DNA from: Thermobispora bispora DSM 43833
GTDB taxonomy: Bacteria; Actinomycetota; Actinomycetes; Streptosporangiales; Streptosporangiaceae
Assembly: GCF_000092645.1 (NCBI RefSeq)
Contig: NC_014165.1
Span: 2,790,001 to 2,854,000 of the forward strand
Direction: 5' to 3'
DNA length: 64,000 nucleotides
The notes beneath the pieces were generated by a model that searched no databases, was not told the DNA's origin, and saw only the letters and a program-made list of their open reading frames with translations. Every line of letters begins with the position of its first letter. Position 1 is the stretch's first letter. Shown here in pieces: positions 16,386 through 30,542 of the stretch. The translations under genes and the position numbers were made by a program.

Positions 16386-17387
16386 TCAGCCGGTGCTCTC
16401 GCGGACGGTGAGCCGGGGTTCGAGGAGCGTCGACCGCGGCACGGGCTCGCCCTCGAGCTTCGCCATGAGCAGCCGCACCGCCTGGCGCCCGACGTCCTCG
16501 GCCGGGATCGGGACCGAGGTCACCGCGGGGCTCGTCCGCTCGGCGATGTCGTCGGGGCAGATCGCCACGACCGAGACGTCGTCCGGCACCCGCCTGCCGA
16601 GGAGGCGCAGCGCGGCGAGCACGTGACCCAGGGCCGCCTCATTGTGCACCACGAGGCCCGACAGATCGGGATGCGCGGCGAACAGGCCCTTGACCGTCTC
16701 GTAGACCTCGTCGAAGGACTCCTCGCAGGGCAGGGCGTCCGCCTCCAGGCCGAGCCGCCGCACCGCCTCGGTGAACCCGGCGAGGGTGCGCTCGGCGAAG
16801 CCGGTGCCGCGCCGGTAGACCACCCGCGGAGCGCCCAGCAGCGCGATCCGCCGGTGGCCGAGCTCGGCGAGGTGCTCGGCGCAGAGCGCGCCCGCGCGGG
16901 CGAAGTCGAGGTCCACGCAGGTCAGGCCCTCGGTGTCCGCGGGGAAGCCGATCAGCACGCTCGGCTGGGGCAGCTCGCGCAGCAGCGGCACGCGCGGATC
17001 GTGGATCTCCACGTCCATGAGCAGCAGGCCGTCGACCATGGCGCTCGCCGCCACCCGGCGCAGTCCCTCCGGCCCCTCGTCGGCGGTCATGAGCAGCACG
17101 TCGTGGTCGTACTGCCGGGCCGTGGTGACCACCGAGGTCGCGAACTGCATGAGGACCGTCAGGTTCATGCCGGCCCGCAGCGGCAGCACCAGGCCGATCA
17201 CGTTCGTCCGTTTGCTGGCGAGCGCGCGGGCGCCCGCGTTCGGGTGGTAGCCGAGCGCCCGGACGCTCTCCAGGACGCGCTGCCGCGTGCTCGCCGAGAT
17301 CGCCCGCTTGCCGCTCAGCACATAGGAGACCGTGCTGACCGCGACTCCGGCGTGCTTGGCGACGTCGGCGATGGTGACCGTCTTCAC
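16386..17387 (-). CDS. LacI-family sugar-responsive repressor
   Basis: A 333-residue repressor. The N-terminal helix-turn-helix and hinge, VTIADVAKHAGVAVSTVSYVLSGKR and NAGARALASKRTNVIGLVLP, is canonical. The periplasmic-binding-like effector domain follows (DGLLLMDVEIHDPR, HRRIALLGAP, GLVVHNEAALGHVLAALRLLGRRVPDDVSVV). Its ATG overlaps the stop of the upstream GH3 gene by 4 bp (ATGA), so the two are translationally coupled. It presumably binds the TCGAAGCGCTTCGA palindromes upstream of that gene and so controls its own operon. The effector is inferred to be a beta-glucoside or a related cello- or xyloglucan-derived sugar. Confidence 0.92.
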   Translation of the reverse strand: MKTVTIADVAKHAGVAVSTVSYVLSGKRAISASTRQRVLESVRALGYHPNAGARALASKRTNVIGLVLPLRAGMNLTVLMQFATSVVTTARQYDHDVLLMTADEGPEGLRRVAASAMVDGLLLMDVEIHDPRVPLLRELPQPSVLIGFPADTEGLTCVDLDFARAGALCAEHLAELGHRRIALLGAPRVVYRRGTGFAERTLAGFTEAVRRLGLEADALPCEESFDEVYETVKGLFAAHPDLSGLVVHNEAALGHVLAALRLLGRRVPDDVSVVAICPDDIAERTSPAVTSVPIPAEDVGRQAVRLLMAKLEGEPVPRSTLLEPRLTVRESTG

Positions 17388-20188
17388 CGGAGGAACTCCA
17401 GCGTACGCACCAGGACCCCCTCGTTCTCGAACACCACGTAGAGATCGTGCACCCCGGCGGTCTCCGCCAGCTCCATGCCGACCTGCACGTAATCGTGCCT
17501 GCTCGCCGTGGGGGGCACGGTCGCCGTGCCGAGCACCCGCCCGGCGAGCGGGTCGCCGAGCCGGAGCGTGAGCGTCCCGCCCTCGGCGCTCGCCACGGTG
17601 AGCAGGCAGCGGGCCGGCCCCGCACCCGGCGGCCCGAAATCGGCGTCACGGAACGCGATCCACGCTCCCGGGCAGGTGGCGCGGACCGCGTCCCCGGCGT
17701 CGACGGCGGCGTCGCACAGTACTACTCCGTCGTACTCGTCGTGGGCGGCCGCGTCCAGTGGGCGGCCGAGGTCCCGCGGCGGGATGCGCTCGCCCTTGAC
17801 CGTGAAGGCGGCGGTGAGCCGGATGTCGCGCGAGGACCGGCCGACCATCACCCGGTGCGGGGCCTCCTCCACCACGAACCTGCCCCTGGTCACGTCCCAG
17901 AACGCCAGCTCGGCGATGGGCACGTCCACCGAGACCGTACGGCTCTCGCCGGGCGCGAGCCGTACCTTGCGGAACCCGCAGAGCCGGCGCAGGGGCTGCT
18001 TGACCCGGGAGCGCCGCTGGTGGGTGTAGAACTGCACGACCTCCTCGCCCACCCGCGGCCCGGTGTTCCGCACGGTCACGGCGATGGTCAGCGTGTCCCG
18101 TGGGGTGAGCTCGGTGGCGGAGAGGGTCAGCCCGGAGTAGGCGAAGCCGGTGTAGCTGAGGCCGTGGCCGAACGGGTAGAGCGGCTCGCCCCGGTAATAG
18201 AGGTATGTGGCGTCGTTGGCGATGATGTCGTAGTCGAGCAGGTCGGGGAGTTCCGCGGCCGACCGGTACCAGGTCTGGGTGATCCGGCCGCCGGGGTCCG
18301 CGTCGCCGAACAGCACGTCGGCCAGGGCGTTGCCGTACTCCTGCCCGCCGTGGGCGGACCAGAGGATCGCGGGGAGGTGCGCGTCCGCCCAGGTGATCGC
18401 GAAGGGGTACCCGCTGCAGATGACGAGGACGGTCGCCGGGTTGGCCGCGTGGACCGCGCGCACCAGCTCCCCCTGCCGCCGGGGCAGCCACAGGTCGGCC
18501 CGGTCCTCGGTCTCCCTGCCGTTCACCAGCGGATGGTCGCCGACCACGACGATGGCGACGTCCGCGCGGGCCGCGGCCTCGGCCGCGCGGGCGGCGCCGC
18601 TGTCGATCAGCTCCAGGGTGAGCACGGCGGCGGCCTCCGGGTCCGCGGTGATCCTCGCCACGCCGTCCGCGACGGTGACGTAGCCGCCGGTGGCGATGTG
18701 GCGGAGGGCCACGCCGCCCGGCCGCTCCTCCAGGCGGAACGTCTCCCGCACCTCCCAGCCGGACACGCCCGGCTTGTCGTTGACGAGGACCCCGTCGTCC
18801 CCCACCGAGACGTGCCGCCCGTTGGCGACCGCGCGGAGCGCGTGGGCGCCGCCTCCCCAGTCGAACAGGTCGAAGCCGGACCGCTCCGGCCCCACCCGCA
18901 GCGGTCCCCCGCTCTCCCCCGGCGCCGCCACCAGGTAGCCGTCCGCGGTGCGGAGCGCGATCCGGTCGACGCCCTCGCAGTAGAGGGTCGGGCACCGCCC
19001 GGAGAGCGCCGTGCGCGCGGTGACCCGGTACGGCAGGGTGCCGCTGTACCAGTCCTCGAACAGGGCGTCGGCGAGCGGGCCGATGACCGCGAGCGTCTTC
19101 GGGGAGCGGAGCGGCAGGATGCCGTCGTTCTTCAGCAGCGTGATCGACTGCCGGGCCGCCTCCCGGGCGAGCCGGCGGTGCTCCGGGCAGTTCACCACCT
19201 CGTGGGTGATGTGGTCGTACGGCGTGGCCGGGTCGAACTCCCCCAGCCTGACCCGGATCGACAGCACGTGCCGGACGGCCCGGTCGATGTCCTCCTCGGT
19301 GAGCAGCCCGCGGTCGAGCGCCGTCCTGATGTGGCCGAGCGTGGCCGCTGGGCGGTCGTCGTCCTGGGTGAAGCTGTCCAGCCCGGCCTTGATCGCATGG
19401 GCGTACGCCTGCGGCAGGTCGTCGTGGTAGCCCTGCGGGTCGACGAGGTTCCCCGGCGCGTGCGCGTCGCTCACCACGAGCAGGTCGTCGTCGGTCCAGC
19501 TCCGCGCGGTGGCGATCAGCGGCGACAGGTGGGCCGGCCGGCCGTTCACCAGGTTGTAGGAGGGCATGAGCGCCACCGCCGCCCCCGCCTCGATCGCGGG
19601 CCGGAACGCCTTCAGCTCGTACTCGTGGAGCACCCGGGGCGGCAGGTTGCTCGAGGTGACGAACCGGTCGGTCTCGTTGTTGTAGCCGAGGAAGTGCTTG
19701 AGGGTGGGGGCGGTCCGCAGCACCTCGTGGTCGCCGCGCAGCCCTTGGGCGTAGGCGGTGGCCATCACGCCGGTGAGCCACGGGTCCTCCGAGTACCCCT
19801 CCTCGTTGCGGCCCCAGCGCGGGTCCCGGAGCGGGTTGACCACCGGCGCCCACACGTTGCGCCCGACCGCCTGCGGGTCCTTGTGGTGGAAGGCCATGAC
19901 CTCCTCCCCGGTGGCGGCGCCGACCCGCCGGACCAGCTCGGGGTTCCACGTGCTCGCCAGCCCGATGGCCTGGGGGAAGACCGTGGCCGGGCCGTGCCAG
20001 GCGAGGCCGTGCAGCGCCTCGGTCCCGGTGCGGAAGGGCCGGAGCCCGAGCCGCGCCACCGGGGCCTGGTACTGGTGGAGCAGCCCGATCTTCTCCTCCA
20101 GGGTGAGCCGGCCGAGCAGGTCATCGACCCGTTCGGCGACGGGCAGCGCGGGGTTCCGGAATGCCGGGCCGGAAGCCGGTTCGTTCAT
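17384..20188 (-). CDS. Cytoplasmic GH3 beta-glucosidase/xylosidase with inserted beta-trefoil-like module and C-terminal CBM6
   Basis: A 934-residue glycoside hydrolase family 3 enzyme releasing sugars from non-reducing ends. No signal peptide is present. The (beta/alpha)8 domain has NPLRDPRWGRNEEGYSEDP, TLKHFLGYNN and nucleophile Asp241 in VVSDAHAPGNLV. An extra module of about 120 residues (about 404-526) splits the alpha/beta sandwich; its FDLFDWGGGAHALRAVANGR pattern recalls fascin-like beta-trefoils. FnIII-like sequence lies at about 690-785, and a CBM6-like tail (EGGTLTLRLGDPLAGRVLGT, GVHDLYVVFENEG) ends it. The start is ATG 20188 behind a G-rich site. The paralogue at 27.6-30.5 kb shares this architecture but is exported. 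Palindromic operators lie 19 and 94 bp upstream. Confidence 0.93.
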   Translation of the reverse strand: MNEPASGPAFRNPALPVAERVDDLLGRLTLEEKIGLLHQYQAPVARLGLRPFRTGTEALHGLAWHGPATVFPQAIGLASTWNPELVRRVGAATGEEVMAFHHKDPQAVGRNVWAPVVNPLRDPRWGRNEEGYSEDPWLTGVMATAYAQGLRGDHEVLRTAPTLKHFLGYNNETDRFVTSSNLPPRVLHEYELKAFRPAIEAGAAVALMPSYNLVNGRPAHLSPLIATARSWTDDDLLVVSDAHAPGNLVDPQGYHDDLPQAYAHAIKAGLDSFTQDDDRPAATLGHIRTALDRGLLTEEDIDRAVRHVLSIRVRLGEFDPATPYDHITHEVVNCPEHRRLAREAARQSITLLKNDGILPLRSPKTLAVIGPLADALFEDWYSGTLPYRVTARTALSGRCPTLYCEGVDRIALRTADGYLVAAPGESGGPLRVGPERSGFDLFDWGGGAHALRAVANGRHVSVGDDGVLVNDKPGVSGWEVRETFRLEERPGGVALRHIATGGYVTVADGVARITADPEAAAVLTLELIDSGAARAAEAAARADVAIVVVGDHPLVNGRETEDRADLWLPRRQGELVRAVHAANPATVLVICSGYPFAITWADAHLPAILWSAHGGQEYGNALADVLFGDADPGGRITQTWYRSAAELPDLLDYDIIANDATYLYYRGEPLYPFGHGLSYTGFAYSGLTLSATELTPRDTLTIAVTVRNTGPRVGEEVVQFYTHQRRSRVKQPLRRLCGFRKVRLAPGESRTVSVDVPIAELAFWDVTRGRFVVEEAPHRVMVGRSSRDIRLTAAFTVKGERIPPRDLGRPLDAAAHDEYDGVVLCDAAVDAGDAVRATCPGAWIAFRDADFGPPGAGPARCLLTVASAEGGTLTLRLGDPLAGRVLGTATVPPTASRHDYVQVGMELAETAGVHDLYVVFENEGVLVRTLEFLR

Positions 20189-20206
20189 CTGGAGACCCAC
20201 CCCCTC

Positions 20207-20224
20207 TGTCGAAGCGCTTCGACA
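20207..20224. promoter_or_regulatory. LacI-type operator O1 (perfect palindrome)
   Basis: TGTCGAAGCGCTTCGACA is an 18-bp perfect palindrome with the central GCGC/CG step typical of LacI-family sites. It lies 19 bp upstream of the GH3 start codon. The coupled LacI gene downstream is the likely ligand. Confidence 0.8.
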
Positions 20225-20281
20225 ACCGCGGGGGACGCTCCCCTGGGCTGAGCGACTGCCTGCGGTCGGGGAAGCGCTCCG

Positions 20282-22144: not shown

Positions 22145-22396
22145 CTAGCGGACGCCCGCGGTGACCTCCTTGTCGGCGATCATCTTCGCGCCGGACTCGC
22201 GGGCGCAGTGCGCGCAGCAGTACCAGCGCCCGTTGAACTCCACCCCGTGACCGACGATGCGGCAGCCGCAGCGCTCGCAGATCGGGGCCAGCCGTGTGAT
22301 CGCGCACTCGAAGCAGTCGAACACGTGCACCCCGCCCTGGGCATGCACCTCGAAGGTCATGTCGTAGTCGTTGCCGCAGACCTCGCACCTGGCCAT
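22145..22396 (-). CDS. Small double zinc-ribbon protein
   Basis: An 83-residue protein with four CxxC-type pairs: CEVCGN near 4, CFECA near 28, CERCGC near 40 and CCAHCARE near 60. It also has a central HVFDCFECAI and a FNGRWYCC segment typical of treble-clef or LIM-like zinc binding. The start is ATG 22396 behind a GGGGGGAA site. No function is known to me; it could be a metal-storage, redox or RNA-binding accessory. It stands alone between the ROK gene and the kinase operon and has its own terminator. Confidence 0.75.
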   Translation of the reverse strand: MARCEVCGNDYDMTFEVHAQGGVHVFDCFECAITRLAPICERCGCRIVGHGVEFNGRWYCCAHCARESGAKMIADKEVTAGVR

Positions 22397-22498: not shown

Positions 22499-24382
22499 TC
22501 AGAGGGCCTTGAGCAGCTCCTTCGCCACCGCCTTGGCCCCGGACTCCGCCTCCTTCGGATCCATCAGCTCGGACTCCTTGGAGTTGATCGGCTGCCCCTC
22601 CGGCCGGTCCGATCCGGCGAGGATCACCCACACCACGAACCTGCCGCTCCGCACGTACACGTTGTAGCTGTTCGAGTACGCGGTGGCGGTCTGCTGGCGG
22701 ACGTGCTGGCCGAACCCGTCGTCGCCCATCTCCAGCTTCTCGAGCCTGCTCCAGCGGATGCCGCCGATCGCGCTGCCGGCGGTCACCTTCGCGCCGGCCC
22801 GCTTGTCGACCAGGTGGAAGTGGGCGGCCTTCGGGTCGGGGAAGGCCCAGATATCGAGCCGGAGGTTGCGCCAGCGGACCTTGCCCTCATCGGCGGGGAG
22901 CTTGTCGTTCCACCACTGGCACCCGGTGACCGTCGCCTTGCCCTCCTGCCAGCGGACCGCCACGCCCTCGGTGCCCGGGACCAGCTTGGCGGCGAGGCTC
23001 TGGAGCCGGGTGCACTCCTCGGGCATCGGGATCTTCGACGGCGAGGGCGACGGGCTCGGGCTGGGCTTGGGCCGCGGCCGGTACGGCAAGGGCTGCCCGT
23101 CGCGCCAGGCCTTGACGGCCTTCGCCGCCTGGGCGAGCAGGTTCTTCACCTCCCGGAGCGCGTTCTCCTCGGTGACGGCCTGGGTGGTCTCCCCGCTGAG
23201 CAGGTCGGCTTCCTTGTCCTGCTGGGACGCCTCGTACTTCACCTGGATGATGACGTCGCCGACCCGGCTGACCCCGGCCCCGAAGGCGTACCGGGTCTGG
23301 TCGCCCTCGCGGGCCCACTGGTACTGCGCGGCCGCCTCGTCACCGATGCCCGGGTACTCCTGGGGCTTGGAGTAGTAGTGCCGCTGGGAGGAGATGCCCG
23401 CCTGGTACCTGTACTGCCGCAGCTCGCCGGTGAAGAAGTTGCGGGCGAACCGCTCGGCCGTGGTGTTGCCGACCGCCTCGTACTTGGTGATGCCGAGCTC
23501 GATGCGGCGCTTGCGCCGCTTCTCCCCGAAGGAGATGTTGTTGTTGACCCAGTTGCAGGAGTACCGCACGTAGCTGACCAGCGGGTCGTCGCGCTGGTCG
23601 CTGGTGGACGAGTCGATCTCCGCGTTCGGCACCAGCCGCTCGGTCTCGTCCGGGTCGAGCATGGCGCACGGGTCCAGCGCCGGCACCGCCGAGGACGTGG
23701 CCACCGGTGAGGTCGACGGGGCCGCCGTGGGCGGCGGGGCGGCCGTGCCCTCGTCCCCACGGCCCCGCAGGAAGAGGAAGGTCCCGGCGGCGACCGCGGC
23801 CACGGCGGTGACCGTCACGACCGGGAGCACCCAGCCGCGGCGCGCGGGCCTGGACGGCTGGGTCGGGTACTGCCACACCGGCGGGGGCGGCGGGGTGGGT
23901 CCGCCTCCCGGCGCGGCCGGTGTCCCGGCCGGCGTCCCCGGCCACTGCCCCATCGGCGGGGCGGCCCAGCCACCGCTCTGCGGCGGCGGTGGCGGCGCCT
24001 GGCCCCCGGGCGGGGCTGGGAACCCACCCCCGGGCGGTGAGGGCGCCTGGCCTTCGGGCGGCGGGGGCGCCTGGTGCGGCGGCAGGCCGCCGGGCGCGGG
24101 CGGCACCTGTCCCGGTCCGGGCGGCGCCTGGCCGCCCGGCGGCTGGGGGATCCGGTCCGCGGGCGGCGCCTGCCCTCCGGGTGGCGGGGGCGCCTGACCC
24201 GCGGGCGGCACGCCGCCGGGCGGAGGCGGTGCTTGACCGCCGGGCGGGACCTGACCGCCGGGTTGCGCGACGGCGGGGCCGTACGGCGGAGGGGGCGCCT
24301 GGCCGGAGCTCGGGCCGGGCGCCGGCGGCCCGCCGGGACCCGCCTGGTCCGGCCGGTTCGCTGCGTCGTCACCGTTGGTCAT
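22499..24382 (-). CDS. Proline-rich single-pass membrane protein with two DUF3558-like ectodomains
   Basis: A 627-residue protein. Residues 1-178 are cytoplasmic and built of many GGQAPPPP-type repeats. One transmembrane helix follows (WVLPVVTVTAVAAVAAGTFLFL). The outer part has two Cys-pair domains: DPCAMLDPDETERLVPNAEI to SCNW (from about 237), and ECTRLQSLAAKLVPGTEGVAV to GCQWW (from about 455), separated by a Pro/Ser linker KPSPSPSPSPS. The C...L...GCxW layout recalls the DUF3558 family. Similar ectodomains occur on both kinases upstream. It starts 18 bp after the kinase gene at 24401, so it belongs to that operon and may be a co-sensor or kinase substrate. Confidence 0.8.
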   Translation of the reverse strand: MTNGDDAANRPDQAGPGGPPAPGPSSGQAPPPPYGPAVAQPGGQVPPGGQAPPPPGGVPPAGQAPPPPGGQAPPADRIPQPPGGQAPPGPGQVPPAPGGLPPHQAPPPPEGQAPSPPGGGFPAPPGGQAPPPPPQSGGWAAPPMGQWPGTPAGTPAAPGGGPTPPPPPVWQYPTQPSRPARRGWVLPVVTVTAVAAVAAGTFLFLRGRGDEGTAAPPPTAAPSTSPVATSSAVPALDPCAMLDPDETERLVPNAEIDSSTSDQRDDPLVSYVRYSCNWVNNNISFGEKRRKRRIELGITKYEAVGNTTAERFARNFFTGELRQYRYQAGISSQRHYYSKPQEYPGIGDEAAAQYQWAREGDQTRYAFGAGVSRVGDVIIQVKYEASQQDKEADLLSGETTQAVTEENALREVKNLLAQAAKAVKAWRDGQPLPYRPRPKPSPSPSPSPSKIPMPEECTRLQSLAAKLVPGTEGVAVRWQEGKATVTGCQWWNDKLPADEGKVRWRNLRLDIWAFPDPKAAHFHLVDKRAGAKVTAGSAIGGIRWSRLEKLEMGDDGFGQHVRQQTATAYSNSYNVYVRSGRFVVWVILAGSDRPEGQPINSKESELMDPKEAESGAKAVAKELLKAL

Positions 24383-24400
24383 GTGGTCTCCTCGGGGGGT

Positions 24401-25783
24401 TCAGCCGAGCCCGGCGCGGATGAGTTCGGCCGCGCGGATCGCGACGCTCCGATCGCCGGGCGTGATCGCCCGGTCGCCGTCCCGGCCGTACGCGACGTGC
24501 ACGATCAGGTTGCTGGTGCGAAAGACCACCGTGGTCCCGGTGGCGGTGCGGCTCGCGGGGTCCGGGGCGTCGCAGACGAACGCCTCGTCCGCGAGGCCCG
24601 GCCGGTCGCTGCAGGAGCCGGCGGGGTGCGCCGCCCGCTGCGCCGCGAGCTCGGCGGCCGCGGCCCGGACGCTCGCCGACGGGATCCGGTACCGCACGAT
24701 CAAGGTCCGGTTCTCGCCGCTGACCCGCTCGATCCACCGGCATCCGGCGGTCTCCTTGTCGGAATCGGCCCTCGTCCCCAGCAGCTCCTGGATCTGTAGA
24801 CGCGTGAGGCTCCGGCAGGGTTCGGGGATGGCGGTGAACCGCCCGGCGGCGTCGGCGGGAGGATCCGACGAGGTCAGCCGCCACGCGCCCAGCCCGGCGG
24901 CCACCCCGGTGGCGAGCACGAGCGCTCCGCCCAGGAGCAGGCGGCCCAGCCGGGCCCGCGGCCGCTCCCCCGGCTCCTCCGGCCCGGCGGCGAGCTCCTC
25001 CAGGACCCGCCGTACCACCTGCGGGGCGGGCCGGCGGGCCGGATCCTTGTCGAGCATGGCGAGCAGGAGCTGCGCGAACCGGGGCGAGGCGCGCACCATG
25101 GGCCGCGGGTCGTGGAGCAGCACCGCGGCGGCGATCGCGGCCGCGATGCTCCGGTGGAAGGGCGGCTCCCCCTCGACCGCCGTGTACAGGGTCGCCGCGA
25201 GCGACCACAGGTCGGAGGCCGGCCCCTCGGGCTCGCCGCGGAGCCGTTCCGGGGCCATGTACCCGGGCGACCCGGCCAGGTCCGCCCAGCCCTCGCGGTG
25301 CCGCCCCGCCGGGACCGCGATGCCGAAGTCGGTGAGCAGGGCGCGGCCGTCGGGCCCGATGAGCACGTTCGCCGGTTTGACGTCCCGGTGGAGGATGCCC
25401 CGGGCGTGGGCGGCCTGCAGCGCGTCGAGGACGGACAGGCCGATCTCGGCGACCCTCCGCTCGGGCAGCGGCCCGTCCTCGCGGATCACCTTGTCGAGCG
25501 ACCGGCCCGGCACCAGGTCCATCACGATCCACGGCTCGTCCCCGTGCATGACGACGTCGTGGACCATGACGATCGAGGGGTGGCTGAGCCGTCCCGCGGC
25601 CCGGGCCTCGTGGATCGCGCGGGCGTGGTACTCGGCGCGCTCGGTGTGGCTGAGCCCGGACGGGGCGCGGACCTGCTTGACCGCGACATCGCGGTGGAGC
25701 AGCTCGTCGACGGCCCGCCACACGGTGCCGCCCCCGCCCTCACCCAGCCGTTCGGTGATGCGGTACCTGCCGGCGAGCCTCAC
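24401..25783 (-). CDS. Membrane Ser/Thr protein kinase with Cys-pair ectodomain
   Basis: A 460-residue PASTA-less Hanks-type kinase. The glycine loop GEGGGGTVW is at about 14-22, with ATP Lys36, HRDVKPAN with catalytic Asp134, DFG Asp152 and SPGYMAPER. The transmembrane helix is at about 281-302 (RLLLGGALVLATGVAAGLGAW). The 158-residue extracellular part, PEPCRSLTRLQIQELLG to AGCRWIER, resembles the ectodomains of its two operon neighbours. The GTG start overlaps the stop of the upstream kinase (GTGA), so the two are translationally coupled. The signal sensed is unknown. Confidence 0.92.
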   Translation of the reverse strand: MRLAGRYRITERLGEGGGGTVWRAVDELLHRDVAVKQVRAPSGLSHTERAEYHARAIHEARAAGRLSHPSIVMVHDVVMHGDEPWIVMDLVPGRSLDKVIREDGPLPERRVAEIGLSVLDALQAAHARGILHRDVKPANVLIGPDGRALLTDFGIAVPAGRHREGWADLAGSPGYMAPERLRGEPEGPASDLWSLAATLYTAVEGEPPFHRSIAAAIAAAVLLHDPRPMVRASPRFAQLLLAMLDKDPARRPAPQVVRRVLEELAAGPEEPGERPRARLGRLLLGGALVLATGVAAGLGAWRLTSSDPPADAAGRFTAIPEPCRSLTRLQIQELLGTRADSDKETAGCRWIERVSGENRTLIVRYRIPSASVRAAAAELAAQRAAHPAGSCSDRPGLADEAFVCDAPDPASRTATGTTVVFRTSNLIVHVAYGRDGDRAITPGDRSVAIRAAELIRAGLG

Positions 25784-27303
25784 GGCCGGGCCATCCCTCG
25801 CAGCCGGTCGGCCACGGCCTGCGCGGCCGAGATCGCCTGGGAGCGCACGTCGTCGAGGGAGGCGGCGTCGAGGTCGGCGTACTGGAGCCGGACGACGAGA
25901 TCGCCGAGCCGGAAGATCACCTCGGTGGCCTGGGGCCGCCCGTCCGGGGTCATGATGTCGCTGCTGAACGCCTCATCGGCCAGGTCCGCCACGTCGCGGG
26001 CGTCGGTACGGACGACCTCGACGTTCCGGTTGACCCCGATCTCGTACCAGATCCAGTGACCCTCGCGCGGGCCGGCGCCGTACTGCCGGCGGAGCCCGCT
26101 CATCAGGGAGCGGGCCGACTCGGGGGTGAGCGACCACGGGTCGGGGGTGTCGGAGTCGGTCTCCGCGGTCAGGTCGATCCCGGCCCCGGTCACCGTCCAC
26201 GCGCACCCGGTGTCGCGCCGTTGCCCCTGCGGCGGGCTCGGCACCCCCAGGTACCGGGCGACCTCGGCGCCGGCGAGGGTGCCGCAGAGGTCGACCTGGG
26301 CGGTGAAGGTCGGGGAGATCGGGCGAGGCCGGGCGGCCGGCTCCCGGTCCGGCCGGTTCAGCAGCAGGGCCGCGCCGGCGACGGCCCCGGCCGCCGCGAC
26401 GGCCGCCACCGGGATGAGCCACCGCGGCCACCGCCGGCCGGTCTGGGCGGGCCCGTGGCCGGGCCGGATGTCGGGCGTCTCCCCGCGCGCGATGCGCCGC
26501 AGCAGCTCGAGCGCGGTCGCCGCGTCGGGGCGATGCTGCGGGTCCGGGCTCATCAGCCACGCGAGCAGCGGGGCCAGCGGGCCGGCGAGCAGGGGCGGCC
26601 GCGCGGAACCGGCGAGCGTCGCCCGGATCGCCTCGGCGGGTGAGCGGCAGTGCTGGTACGGCGCCACGCCCTCGACCGCGGTGTAGAGGGTGGCGCCCAG
26701 GGACCATAGGTCGGCGGCCGGCCCGCCGGGCCGGCCGGCCAGGCGCTCGGGGGCGATGAACCCGGGCGAGCCGATGAGCGCCCCGGCCTCGGTCAGCACC
26801 GGCCCGTCGGCCGGGCGGGCGATGCCGAAGTCGGTGAGCACGACGCGGCCGTCGGTGGTGAGGAAGACGTTGCCGGGCTTGACGTCCCGGTGCTCCACGC
26901 CGATGGCGTGCGCGGCGGATAACGCCTCGAGCACCCGGGCGCCGATGCCGGCCACCACGTGGGGCGGCATCGGGCCGTTGGCCGCGATCTCCCGGGCGAG
27001 GTCCCGGCCGTGGAGGAGCTCCATGACGAGCCACGGCCGGCCGCCCTCGATCAGCACGTCGTGCAGGGCCACGATGCCGGGGTGCCGGAGGCGGGCGGTC
27101 ACCTCCGCCTCCCGCATGACCCTGGCCATCAGCTCGGCGCGTTCCGCCTCGGAGAGGCCGTCGGTGAGGCGCAGCTCCTTGACCGCGACCTCGCGGTCGA
27201 GCACCGTGTCCCTGGCCAGCCACACCGTGCCCATACCGCCGGTGCCGAGCGGGCGCAGCAGCTGATACCGCGAGGCCAGCGTCTGGCTCACCGATTCGGC
27301 CAT
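25780..27303 (-). CDS. Membrane Ser/Thr protein kinase, first gene of the operon
   Basis: A 507-residue Hanks-type kinase. It has the glycine loop LGTGGMGTVW, catalytic Lys in EVAVKEL, HRDVKPGNV, LTDFGIA and SPGFIAPERL. The transmembrane helix is at about 300 (WLIPVAAVAAAGAVAGAALLL). An extracellular part with LCGTLAGAEVARYLG and GCAWTVTGAG repeats the Cys-pair pattern of its neighbours. The start is ATG 27303 (MAESVSQTLASRYQLLRPLG); sequence upstream of it is not protein-like. It probably heads a three-gene transcript (27303 to 22499) starting in the 272-bp space before the secreted GH3 gene. Confidence 0.92.
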   Translation of the reverse strand: MAESVSQTLASRYQLLRPLGTGGMGTVWLARDTVLDREVAVKELRLTDGLSEAERAELMARVMREAEVTARLRHPGIVALHDVLIEGGRPWLVMELLHGRDLAREIAANGPMPPHVVAGIGARVLEALSAAHAIGVEHRDVKPGNVFLTTDGRVVLTDFGIARPADGPVLTEAGALIGSPGFIAPERLAGRPGGPAADLWSLGATLYTAVEGVAPYQHCRSPAEAIRATLAGSARPPLLAGPLAPLLAWLMSPDPQHRPDAATALELLRRIARGETPDIRPGHGPAQTGRRWPRWLIPVAAVAAAGAVAGAALLLNRPDREPAARPRPISPTFTAQVDLCGTLAGAEVARYLGVPSPPQGQRRDTGCAWTVTGAGIDLTAETDSDTPDPWSLTPESARSLMSGLRRQYGAGPREGHWIWYEIGVNRNVEVVRTDARDVADLADEAFSSDIMTPDGRPQATEVIFRLGDLVVRLQYADLDAASLDDVRSQAISAAQAVADRLRGMARP

Positions 27304-27575: not shown

Positions 27576-30542
27576 TCACCCCGAGGTGAGGCTCAGGTCC
27601 TTGATCCGCACGTCGCCCTGGAACACCAGGTAGAGGTCCTTGACCCCGGACGCCCCGGTGACCCGGGCGGCCGCCGTCTCGTACCGGTAGACGTCGCCGG
27701 TGGCGGCGACGGGCACGGTGGCGATCAGCTTGCCCTTGGGCGAGCCGAGGCGGAGCTCGATGGAGCCGCCGGAGGTGGAGGCGACCCCGGCGGTCACCCG
27801 GGACGGCCGCCGCTTGAGGTCGACGTCCTTGAAGACGATCCAGTCACCGGTGGAGCCCGCCACGGCGTCCCCGCGCGCCTTGGTCTCGTCCACCAGCTCG
27901 ACGCCCGAATAGCCGTCGAAGTCGATCGCCCGGGTGGGGACGCTCAGGTCCCGGTCGGGGATCCGCTCACCCTTGACGTGGATCGTGGCCCGCTGCCGGA
28001 TGTCGGCCGAGGACGCCCCGACCATGACGTCGTGGGCGGAGGTCTCGACCGTCCACTTGTTCCGGGTCACGTCCCACAGCGCCAGGTCGGCCTTGCGGAT
28101 GGTGAAGGTCACGGTCTTGCTCTGGCCCGGGGCGAGCGTGATCCGCTGGAAGGCGCGGAGCTGCTTGACCGGCTGCTTCACCCGCGAGGTCCGCTGGTGG
28201 GTGTAGACCTGGACGACCTCGTCGCCCGCCCGGTGGCCGGTGTTGGTCACCCGTACCGAGACCTCGTAGGCGTCGCCCTTCTCGGCCACCCGCAGGCCCT
28301 GGTAGCGGAAGGTCGTGTACGACAGGCCGTGCCCGAAGGGGTAGAGCGGGGTGCCCTTGAAGTACAGGTAGGTCCGGTCCCGCTGCACGATGTCGTAGTC
28401 GAGGATGTCCGGCAGGTCGTCCGCCGAGCGGTACCAGGTCTGGGTGAGCCGCCCGGCCGGGTTGACGTCGCCGTAGAGCACGTCGGCGAGCGCGTTCCCG
28501 GTCTCCGCCCCGGCGTGGGTGGTCCAGAGGATGGCCGGCACGTGCTCGTCGATCCAGTTGATCGTCGTCGGGTAGCTGTTCTCCAGCACGACGACGGTGC
28601 GGGGGTTGGCGTTGAACACCGCCTTGACCAGCGCCTCCTGGCCCTCGGCCAGGTTCATGTCGGTGCGGTCGTGGTCCTCGCGGCCGTTGATGAACGGCAT
28701 GCTGCCGACGACGACCACCGCCACGTCGGCCTCCTTCGCCTTGGCGACCGCGTCGTCGATGCCGCTGCGGACCACCTCCTTGGCGAACCGCGTGGCGTCG
28801 CCGGCCGTGGTGAGGGTGAGCGTGCCGTCGGGGGCGGCCTTGACGTAGGTGTTCGGGCCGAACCAGTCGTAGGCGGTCTCGTACCCGGCGTACCTGATCA
28901 GGTAGGAGCCGTCGTCCTGCTCCTCCAGCTTGAACTGCTCCTGCACGAACCAGCCGCTCGGCTGGTCGGCGTTGTTGACCAGCGTCGACCAGTTGGCCCG
29001 GCTGACGTACTTGCCGTTGGCGACGCTGCGCAGCGTCACGATGCCCTGGCCCCAGTCGAACACGTCGAACTGCTCGGTCTCGCCGATCGTGGTGGCGCTC
29101 AGCCTGAGGTCGGCGCCCTCGGGGCCGCTCCCCGCGGTGATGTACCTGCCGGTGGCGAGGTCCTTGAACGCGACCCGGTCGACGCCCTCCGAGGAGGTCA
29201 CCGAGGCCGCCCGCTCCCGGATGCCGTCGAGCGGGGTGACCTGGTACGTCGGCCTGCCCGAGTACCAGTCGGTGTAGAGCACGTCGGCGAGCGGCCCGAC
29301 CACCGCGACCTTCATCCCGGGGTCGAGCGGCAGGGTGCCGCGCTCGTTCTTCAGCAGCACCATGGCCTTGGCCGCGGTCTCGCGGGCGAGCCTCCGGTGG
29401 GCCGGGCTGTCGATCACATCCGGGGTGATCTTCGCGTACGGCCCGCCGTCCGGGTCGAACTCGCCCAGCCGGAAGCGGATGCCGAGGATGTGCCGGACGG
29501 CGGTGTCGATGTCCTGTTCGGTGAGCAGGCCCTGCGACAGCGCCGTCTTGATCGCGGTGATCGTGGGGGCGCTGTTCGTCTCGTCCGTGGTGAAGCTGTC
29601 GATCCCCGCCTTGAGCGCGGCGGCGTCGGCCTCGGCCAGGGTGGCGAAGTAGGCCTGCGAGCCGACGAGGTTGTTGGGCGCCCCGGCGTCGGTGACGTTG
29701 AGCAGGTCCCGGTCGGTCCAGGTCCGGACGGTGTCGTTGAGGTCGGGGTTGACCGTGGCCGGCCGGCCGTTCACCAGGTTGTACGCGGTCATGACACCGG
29801 TGGCCGCGCCGGCCGTGATCGCCGCCCGGAACGGCGCCTCGTAGTACTCGTGCTTGACCCGGGGCGGCAGGTTCGACGAGGTGGTGTCGCGGCGGATCTC
29901 GTTGTTGTTGGCGAGGTAGTGCTTGAGCGTGGGGGCCGCCCTGAGGTGGTCGGGGTCGTCCCCCTGGATGCCCGAGCCGTACGCGATGGCGATCGCGCCG
30001 GTGAGCAGGGGGTCCTCGGAGTACCCCTCCTCGTTGCGCCCCCAGCGCGGGTCGCGCAGCAGGTTGACGACCGGGGCCCACAGGTTGAGCCCCCAGACCA
30101 CCGGGTTCTGCGCGTGGAATCCGCGCGCCTCCTCGCCGACGGCGGTGCCGACCCGCTTGATCAGCTCCGGGTCCCAGGTGCTCGCCAGGCCGACCGCCTG
30201 GGGGAACACGGTGCCGTTCGCCGTGACGACGGCGCCGTTGTCGGTGACGTCGGTGGACCAGGCGACCCCGTGCAGCGCCTCGGTGCCGGTCTTGAAGCTC
30301 TTGATGCCGAGGCGCTCGATCGGCGGCTGGTACTGGTGGAGGAGGGAGATCTTCTCGTCGAGCGTCAGCCTGCCGAGCAGGTCGTCGATCCGCTGGGCGA
30401 GCGGGAGCGTGGGGTCGCGGAAGGGAAGGTCGGCGTCGGCTCGCGCGGGGGCGGCCGTCAGGGCGAGGACGAGCGTGAGCGCGGGGAGCGCGCGGAGGGG
30501 CCTACGTAACGGCATCGCGCGGAGGGGCCTAGGTAACGGCAT
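27576..30542 (-). CDS. Secreted GH3 glycosidase with inserted beta-trefoil-like module and CBM6
   Basis: A 988-residue exported paralogue of the GH3 enzyme at 17.4 kb. The signal peptide is residues 1-37 (LPALTLVLALTAAPARA). The catalytic barrel has NLLRDPRWGRNEEGYSEDP, TLKHYLANNNE and nucleophile Asp285 in LNVTDAGAPNNLV. The extra module (about 452-588) contains FDVFDWGQGIVTLRSVANGK. FnIII-like sequence follows, then CBM6 at about 866-988 (SGGSIELRLGSPKGKLIATV, GVKDLYLVFQGDV). ATG 30542 is preceded by GGAGG with a 4-nt gap. It is the last gene of the GH31-ABC operon, so it probably trims oligosaccharides outside the cell or at the wall before import. Confidence 0.93.
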   Translation of the reverse strand: MPLPRPLRAMPLRRPLRALPALTLVLALTAAPARADADLPFRDPTLPLAQRIDDLLGRLTLDEKISLLHQYQPPIERLGIKSFKTGTEALHGVAWSTDVTDNGAVVTANGTVFPQAVGLASTWDPELIKRVGTAVGEEARGFHAQNPVVWGLNLWAPVVNLLRDPRWGRNEEGYSEDPLLTGAIAIAYGSGIQGDDPDHLRAAPTLKHYLANNNEIRRDTTSSNLPPRVKHEYYEAPFRAAITAGAATGVMTAYNLVNGRPATVNPDLNDTVRTWTDRDLLNVTDAGAPNNLVGSQAYFATLAEADAAALKAGIDSFTTDETNSAPTITAIKTALSQGLLTEQDIDTAVRHILGIRFRLGEFDPDGGPYAKITPDVIDSPAHRRLARETAAKAMVLLKNERGTLPLDPGMKVAVVGPLADVLYTDWYSGRPTYQVTPLDGIRERAASVTSSEGVDRVAFKDLATGRYITAGSGPEGADLRLSATTIGETEQFDVFDWGQGIVTLRSVANGKYVSRANWSTLVNNADQPSGWFVQEQFKLEEQDDGSYLIRYAGYETAYDWFGPNTYVKAAPDGTLTLTTAGDATRFAKEVVRSGIDDAVAKAKEADVAVVVVGSMPFINGREDHDRTDMNLAEGQEALVKAVFNANPRTVVVLENSYPTTINWIDEHVPAILWTTHAGAETGNALADVLYGDVNPAGRLTQTWYRSADDLPDILDYDIVQRDRTYLYFKGTPLYPFGHGLSYTTFRYQGLRVAEKGDAYEVSVRVTNTGHRAGDEVVQVYTHQRTSRVKQPVKQLRAFQRITLAPGQSKTVTFTIRKADLALWDVTRNKWTVETSAHDVMVGASSADIRQRATIHVKGERIPDRDLSVPTRAIDFDGYSGVELVDETKARGDAVAGSTGDWIVFKDVDLKRRPSRVTAGVASTSGGSIELRLGSPKGKLIATVPVAATGDVYRYETAAARVTGASGVKDLYLVFQGDVRIKDLSLTSG
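30489..30542. repeat. 27-bp tandem duplication in the signal-peptide coding region
   Basis: Two 27-bp copies (30489-30515 and 30516-30542) differ at one base. They encode MPLPRPLRA and MPLRRPLRA, so the GH3 leader has a doubled, Arg-rich n-region and two in-frame ATGs. Only the outer ATG has a ribosome site. Confidence 0.85.

Follow-up and report, generated by a model that had tools for sequence, protein, structure and literature searches.

We analysed a window of 64,000 nucleotides from the genome of Thermobispora bispora DSM 43833 (contig NC_014165.1, positions 2,790,001 to 2,854,000; the genome is a single contig of 4,189,976 bases), in which three consecutive genes on the minus strand, here termed KinA, KinB and P3 and collectively the triad, span positions 27303–22499. 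KinB begins with a GTG start codon and overlaps KinA by 4 bases, and 18 bases lie between the KinB stop and the P3 start. An original prediction, made from the sequence, had described these as consecutive, overlapping or near-abutting genes for two membrane kinases and a proline-rich membrane protein, a layout confirmed by coordinates, Pfam matches and repeat analysis. It further read them as a multi-kinase sensor, to be checked by comparing the folds of their extracellular domains (ectodomains) and the order of the genes in other genomes. The genes and their parts (aa, amino acids; TM, transmembrane segment) are as follows.

25780–27303, minus strand: KinA, 507 aa; Hanks-type Ser/Thr kinase (aa 13–265), short juxtamembrane linker, TM and ectodomain E1 (approximately aa 331–507).
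24401–25783, minus strand: KinB, 460 aa; Hanks-type Ser/Thr kinase (aa 7–255), TM and ectodomain E2 (approximately aa 314–460).
22499–24382, minus strand: P3, 627 aa; Pro/Gly/Gln-rich cytoplasmic tail, TM and ectodomains E3a and E3b.
23834–24382, minus strand: cytoplasmic tail of P3 (aa 1–183); GGQAPPPP-type repeats, then a membrane-proximal PTQP.
23048–23692, minus strand: ectodomain E3a of P3; Cys pair in 22/22 sequences, helix/strand order the same as in E3b.
22502–23038, minus strand: ectodomain E3b of P3; matches structure 4esq (the PknH sensor) with Z 15.1 and a root-mean-square deviation of 2.6 over 144 aligned residues.

The KinA-KinB-P3 arrangement proved to be a stable unit across genomes. 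Among 149 genomes (that of T. bispora included), 21 gave a match to the P3 ectodomains, and the 18 other genomes with strong P3-ectodomain matches were the same 18 with E1 matches (E 1.3e-25 or better); gene order was retained in the loci from these 18 genomes, with contig ends splitting the set in two of them (G027 and G033). A genome scan then yielded 62 loci, all in Streptosporangiaceae-type genera, and 58/62 hold the three genes in this order on one strand, the remaining four (L094, L098, L100 and L139) being cut by contig ends. No triad member is absent from any of the 58 complete loci. A sample of 394 genomes from the class gave full-length P3 matches in the same family only, while weaker one-domain matches occurred elsewhere too; of 297 genomes sampled within the family, 141 had E1-type domains. 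Triad-bearing species are soil or compost actinobacteria and are not known as pathogens, which would make the system safe to work with. The genes flanking the triad vary by clade (27/59 complete loci, from Nonomuraea, [Actinomadura] parvosata and Thermoactinospora, have a different upstream neighbour, which is encoded on the opposite strand), and, since these flanks vary while the triad persists, the triad itself rather than a larger cluster is the conserved unit. Neighbouring genes were tabulated with a codon-bias gene caller, which missed the KinA of one locus (L146).

All four ectodomains carry the motif C-x-x-L…L-[GV]…C-x-W, with first-Cys contexts CGTL, CRSL, CAML and CTRL. The original prediction of a shared Cys-pair motif in four copies therefore stands, although its exact form needs correction: the first Cys is followed by x-x-L instead of x-L, and in E3a it is S that precedes the second Cys. 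Across the profiles, each of which comprises 19 to 22 rows, both Cys are invariant (19/19 E1, 19/19 E2, 22/22 E3a and 22/22 E3b); a single-sequence query left E2 unscored in L057 and L059, both of which align with the Cys pair. Profile-profile comparison gave E-values of 2e-25 for E1-E2, 1e-17 for E3a-E3b, 2.6e-13 for E2-E3a, 1.4e-10 for E2-E3b and 4e-8 for E1-E3a, and all 12 reversed-profile controls returned E 0.13 or worse. At the level of sequence, these comparisons show E1, E2, E3a and E3b to be one domain family. Its relation to DUF3558 (PF12079), the family to which the ectodomains had been likened, is distant: KinA, KinB and P3 scored 20.1, 14.8 and 18.8 bits against a Pfam cut-off of 34.1, and sub-threshold matches (E up to 0.1) were obtained for 39/46 E1, 31/43 E2 and 6/49 E3a-E3b members. 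KinA and P3 were the only two proteins of the T. bispora genome among the DUF3558 matches listed.

Structural modelling placed this family in a known sensor fold. AlphaFold models, built from window and orthologue sequences, were of high confidence (pLDDT 96.4 for E1 and 92.8 for E3a-E3b), and the best solved match of each of two modelled domains was the PknH sensor 4esq (E1: Z 13.8, 151 aligned, 2.8 Å; E3b: Z 15.1, 144 aligned, 2.6 Å). TiME came second in both cases, effectively tied with 4esq (Z 14.3 for E3b and 13.1 for E1), and the matches after these two dropped to Z 11.4 (E3b) and 9.5 (E1). Foldseek likewise ranked 4esq top for both models (E 1.8e-3 and 6.9e-4); further fold matches include an Rv0999 orthologue, Dip2269, PsbP, Mog1, RseB and others. 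The predicted models thus show E1 and E3b to have the PknH sensor fold, and E3a to share a PknH-like fold through its topology and its profile match to E3b, the structure searches bearing almost wholly on E1 and E3b. Sequence searches of the PDB gave no match up to E 10 with the E3 profile and two matches, at chance level only, with the E1 profile. Unrelated domains that happen to share a Cys pair were considered and rejected by the profile, fold and gene-order tests. Five other kinase clusters of the T. bispora genome held no E1/E2/E3-like domain at a domain E below 1.

With the ectodomain fold shared (by model for E1, E3a and E3b, by profile for E2) and gene order conserved in 58/62 loci, the multi-kinase sensor unit is well supported. 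The accompanying proposal that one ligand family is read by several ectodomains did not find comparable backing: apart from the two Cys, E1, E2 and E3 have few invariant residues in common, so each ectodomain may have a binding partner of its own, or the ectodomains may bind one another.

The two kinases appear to differ in their regulation. Pfam Pkinase scores are 148 bits for KinA and 167 bits for KinB, and P3 gave no kinase domain match in the Pfam scan. All four catalytic residues of Hanks-type kinases (catalytic Lys, HRD Asp, Asn and DFG Asp) are present in 58/58 KinA and 58/58 KinB orthologues. The HRD Arg, in turn, is present in 58/58 KinA orthologues, while KinB orthologues have Gln (29), Arg (26) or His (3) at this position; an activation-loop Thr occurs in 59/59 KinA sequences (window included) versus 14/52 parsed KinB sequences, the KinB loops having been parsed by pattern, with 7/59 rows left unparsed. 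Only KinA retains both features across all orthologues and, because these patterns differ, KinA looks to be regulated in the usual way, whereas KinB looks divergent, strongly so in the window and by degree elsewhere. No Pfam match to PASTA repeats was found in the triad proteins, so these are not PASTA kinases of the PknB/StkP type; the NCBIfam PASTA-kinase model scored 202 and 217 bits, below its cut-off of 450. Elsewhere in the T. bispora genome, one locus (L148, C1:3334500-3345500) holds three tandem kinases that, by inspection, seem to end in several membrane segments and not in an ectodomain.

The Pro-rich repeat of the P3 tail is real (periods 21–42), but the tract is variable or missing in P3 orthologues, whose tails range from 15 to 798 aa and are shorter than 40 aa in 11/58. 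This variation, read across sequences, shows the tract to be dispensable and weakens the suggestion that the tail serves as a scaffold; on the same lengths, the tract was rejected as the conserved function of the tail. P3 start codons and tail lengths were assigned heuristically, two slightly different rules being applied. A short Thr motif is more widely retained. In the window it reads PTQP (Thr174, bases 23863–23861), beside the membrane, and PT.P occurs in 51/58 P3 tails (shuffled mean 24, maximum 34) and in 21/25 short tails (shuffled mean 6.7, maximum 13). Other Thr patterns gave, over the 58 tails, 48 for T[QTPM]P (shuffles at most 42), 23 for TT[QP] (at most 17) and 43 for a combined pattern (at most 12). 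The sequences are suggestive of a conserved short Thr motif, and the idea that the tail is a phosphorylation target gains weakly from a count of 51/58 against a shuffled maximum of 34 for a pattern chosen post hoc. In several loci a Pro-rich stretch of 50–145 aa lies in the KinA juxtamembrane region (L108-L111, L113, L119, L121, L122, L126 and L132), and in five of these loci (L119, L121, L122, L126 and L132) the P3 tail is just 28–48 aa long. Juxtamembrane length and P3 tail length show a Spearman correlation of −0.47, a figure that is uncorrected for descent, comes mostly from Microtetraspora and Planomonospora/Planobispora, and is not used here as evidence.

Around the triad, the surroundings vary. 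In the window, one GH3-like beta-glucosidase gene lies on either side (17384–20251 and 27576–30542). Genes for sugar ABC transport and a GH31-like gene are found upstream, and downstream there is a ROK-like gene; these names were all assigned by inspection. In four other loci (L057, L060, L061 and L062) a gene upstream of the triad encodes a secreted protein that we take to resemble an AA10 polysaccharide mono-oxygenase. A small Cys-rich gene lies directly downstream of the triad, on the same strand, in 13/59 complete loci, and in the window it is the following.

22148–22396, minus strand: possible fourth gene, outside the conserved core; 83-aa Cys-rich protein, zinc-ribbon-like by inspection, directly downstream of P3.

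Paralogous loci (among L067-L085) carry three or four tandem kinases with ectodomains of the triad family, and offer a second view of how such operons are built. Array kinases were scored as active or dead from four catalytic positions read off an automatic alignment. Strict active-dead-active-dead order was seen in eight arrays, all from Streptosporangiaceae (L067, L070, L071, L075, L076, L078, L079 and L084), and L081 follows the same order, its fourth gene being without one of the four catalytic residues. Other arrangements are active-active-dead-dead (L077) and active-dead-dead-active (L072); L083 and L085 have fewer members, and L074, L080 and L082 are either incomplete or differently composed. 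The second gene of an array matched the kinase C-lobe only in 10/10 examined, and in the four that were read this lobe is followed by a Pro-rich stretch, a TM and an ectodomain; three second-gene proteins tested gave little or no Pfam kinase signal, while of two fourth-gene proteins one scored just above and one just below the Pkinase cut-off. Active and inert members share one type of sensor, both in the triad and in those arrays that include dead kinases.

In comparisons of ectodomain profiles, the partner of E1 was array gene 1 (score 263) and that of E2 was array gene 3 (195). A kinase-domain tree of 80 chosen rows places KinA with array gene 1 (support 99/94) and sets the dead gene 4 in a clade of its own (100/100). 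This tree omits the C-lobe-only second genes, all of L068, L080, L082 and L085, the fourth gene of L081, the later genes of L069, L073 and L077, the second and third genes of L072 and the first and last kinases of L083. Profiles and tree together tie KinA to array gene 1 and, more weakly, KinB to gene 3; because of these pairings, the common ancestor of triad and arrays was probably an operon in which two kinases of different type were already present.

We consider it about an even call that the triad forms a heteromeric receptor with PknH-like sensors, in which two kinases are joined by a catalytically inert co-receptor, P3, that is perhaps also a substrate. Briefly, KinA would be the regulated kinase, activated via phosphorylation of its activation-loop Thr; KinB would act as a second kinase with intact catalytic residues and a divergent regulatory loop; and P3, as the inert co-receptor, would add two sensor domains on the extracellular side and a short motif with a Thr on the cytoplasmic side. 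Binding of an extracellular ligand, or of one ectodomain to another, would alter this assembly, whereupon KinA would autophosphorylate and go on to phosphorylate KinB, the Thr of the P3 PTxP motif, or both; a phospho-Thr reader acting downstream could then dock at the phosphorylated Thr. The physical complex, the binding of a ligand, the direction of phosphorylation and the downstream reader are what we infer from these patterns. More tentatively still, and with rather more doubt than confidence, the triad may belong to a wider class of obligate heteromeric receptors in Streptosporangiaceae, each combining active kinases that bear PknH-fold sensors with dead relatives in one operon; in the arrays the dead partners would be a C-lobe-only protein and a full-length pseudokinase, and in the triad the partner would have given up its kinase entirely and duplicated its sensor.

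Several observations count against this heteromeric receptor or its extension to the arrays. On the sensor side, the E1-E3b profile match is weak taken alone (E 1.4e-4 over 38 columns), and the predicted E2 fold follows from the profile match to E1 alone. On the kinase side, Ser or Thr is present in the activation loop of 51/52 parsed KinB sequences, the sole exception being the KinB of the window, so loop regulation may apply to KinB too in most species, leaving the KinA/KinB asymmetry a matter of degree. As for the tail, PT.P was picked after viewing the tails, as one of four patterns and among rows related by descent, and T[QTPM]P, in 17/25 short tails, is not above the best shuffle. One locus (L097) has approximately 1.4 kb between KinB and P3. 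Among the arrays, L069 and L073 hold active kinases only and L068 is without catalytic residues even in its first gene; the grouping of KinB with array gene 3 has a support of 89/85, below the starred level, with the gene-3 row of L072 beside KinB. The origin of P3 is likewise blurred: outside E3b, E3a best matches dead gene 4 (95), barely over gene 3 (85), E2 (85) and gene 2 (79), and outside E3a, E3b best matches gene 3 (69), then E2 (67) and gene 4 (63), scores with which descent of P3 from a kinase, possibly a dead one, is plausible. Finally, tandem duplication alone could yield adjacent paralogues with unrelated roles.

That last point is the core of the main rival, in which local duplication left three proteins with a shared operon and fold that each sense and act alone, P3 being a kinase-less relic. 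The sensors and kinases of the triad are clearly paralogous and the P3 gene has been duplicated again in 4/62 loci (L119, L121, L126 and L132), as expected under such a history; yet no member is missing in 58 complete loci across several different neighbourhoods, and conservation is higher in the P3 ectodomains than in E2 (52% versus 39% mean column identity), unlike a decaying relic. We regard independent action as unlikely, if a serious contender. P3 might alternatively be an inhibitor or decoy whose doubled sensor titrates ligand or separates KinA and KinB, damping signalling. Its lack of a kinase and its two sensor copies suit this role, and dead array kinases, too, could serve as inhibitory partners, but the retained PTxP motif suggests an active cytoplasmic role. 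These data do not distinguish the sign of the P3 effect; we judge such damping a good deal less probable.

The surroundings in the window raise one further explanation, a carbohydrate-responsive switch for the adjacent glycoside-hydrolase and sugar-transport genes. GH3-like genes do flank the triad there, sugar ABC transport genes and a ROK-like regulator are close by, and a GH3-like cluster occurs in the fetched stretch of 13/63 loci; it is missing from the other 50/63, however, the 27/59 loci described above have a different, opposite-strand upstream neighbour, and the sensor fold offers no hint of sugar binding. We hold this explanation to be very improbable. A general tie of the triad to glycosidase genes was rejected, neighbourhoods differing among loci.

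The heteromeric receptor draws on parts of known kinds. PknH of Mycobacterium tuberculosis, the source of 4esq, likewise consists of a kinase, a TM and a C-terminal sensor of the same fold, and the available part of one report describes a Pro-rich region between its kinase and the membrane (PMC7785237), a feature it shares with KinA in some genera. PknH_C (PF14032) gave no match in the T. bispora genome at E up to 1, in a search in which no control genome passed and which is hence without a positive control, and it was not among the matches listed in Pfam scans of the triad proteins and of the E1, E2 and E3a-E3b sets. Because of this missing PknH_C match and the DUF3558 scores below cut-off, we file the triad proteins as working like PknH, not as PknH. 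The PknH sensor, as described in the accessible portions of two papers, has a cleft and two disulfides (PMC3601408, PMC4118811), in contrast to the one conserved Cys pair in the sequence of each triad ectodomain; its ligand and activation mode were given as unknown as of 2012 (PMC3601408, in the portion at hand). The larger difference is one of composition, with two kinases and a kinase-less double-sensor protein here sharing one operon.

Sensors of this kind without a kinase have been described in mycobacteria. According to the retrieved sections of one paper, a PknH-like sensor domain occurs in the kinase-less lipoproteins LpqQ, LprH, LppH and LpqA, plus Rv3705c (PMC4118811). Like P3, these have a sensor and no kinase, being named there as lipoproteins or a culture-filtrate protein; unlike them, P3 has a TM, a cytoplasmic tail, two sensors and linkage to two kinases. 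A likeness in gene arrangement is offered by the pknH1-tbd2-pknH2 locus (RD900), whose two pknH genes have alike kinase domains and different sensors; tbd2, which lies between them, is a putative ABC transporter gene that includes an FHA domain (PMC7785237, as far as its available text goes). It resembles the triad in having two nearby receptor kinases, with no kinase-less sensor protein reported there in that text. Thus sensor and kinase are of known kinds, while no precedent for a stable operon that joins two kinases to a kinase-less protein with two sensors, or for arrays alternating active and dead kinases, turned up in our searches of open-licence PMC papers or in the text read from them.

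With four related sensors encoded in a single operon, and a kinase-less protein carrying two of these, it can be asked cleanly whether sensors of this kind bind to one another, to a ligand or to both. If the dead-partner design holds true, bacteria too would run receptor kinases as mixed active/inactive assemblies, a bacterial counterpart of receptor families with kinase-dead co-receptors. The ErbB/HER receptors, which combine active receptor kinases with a catalytically dead relative, offer a comparison, as an analogy of design and with no claim of architectural homology.

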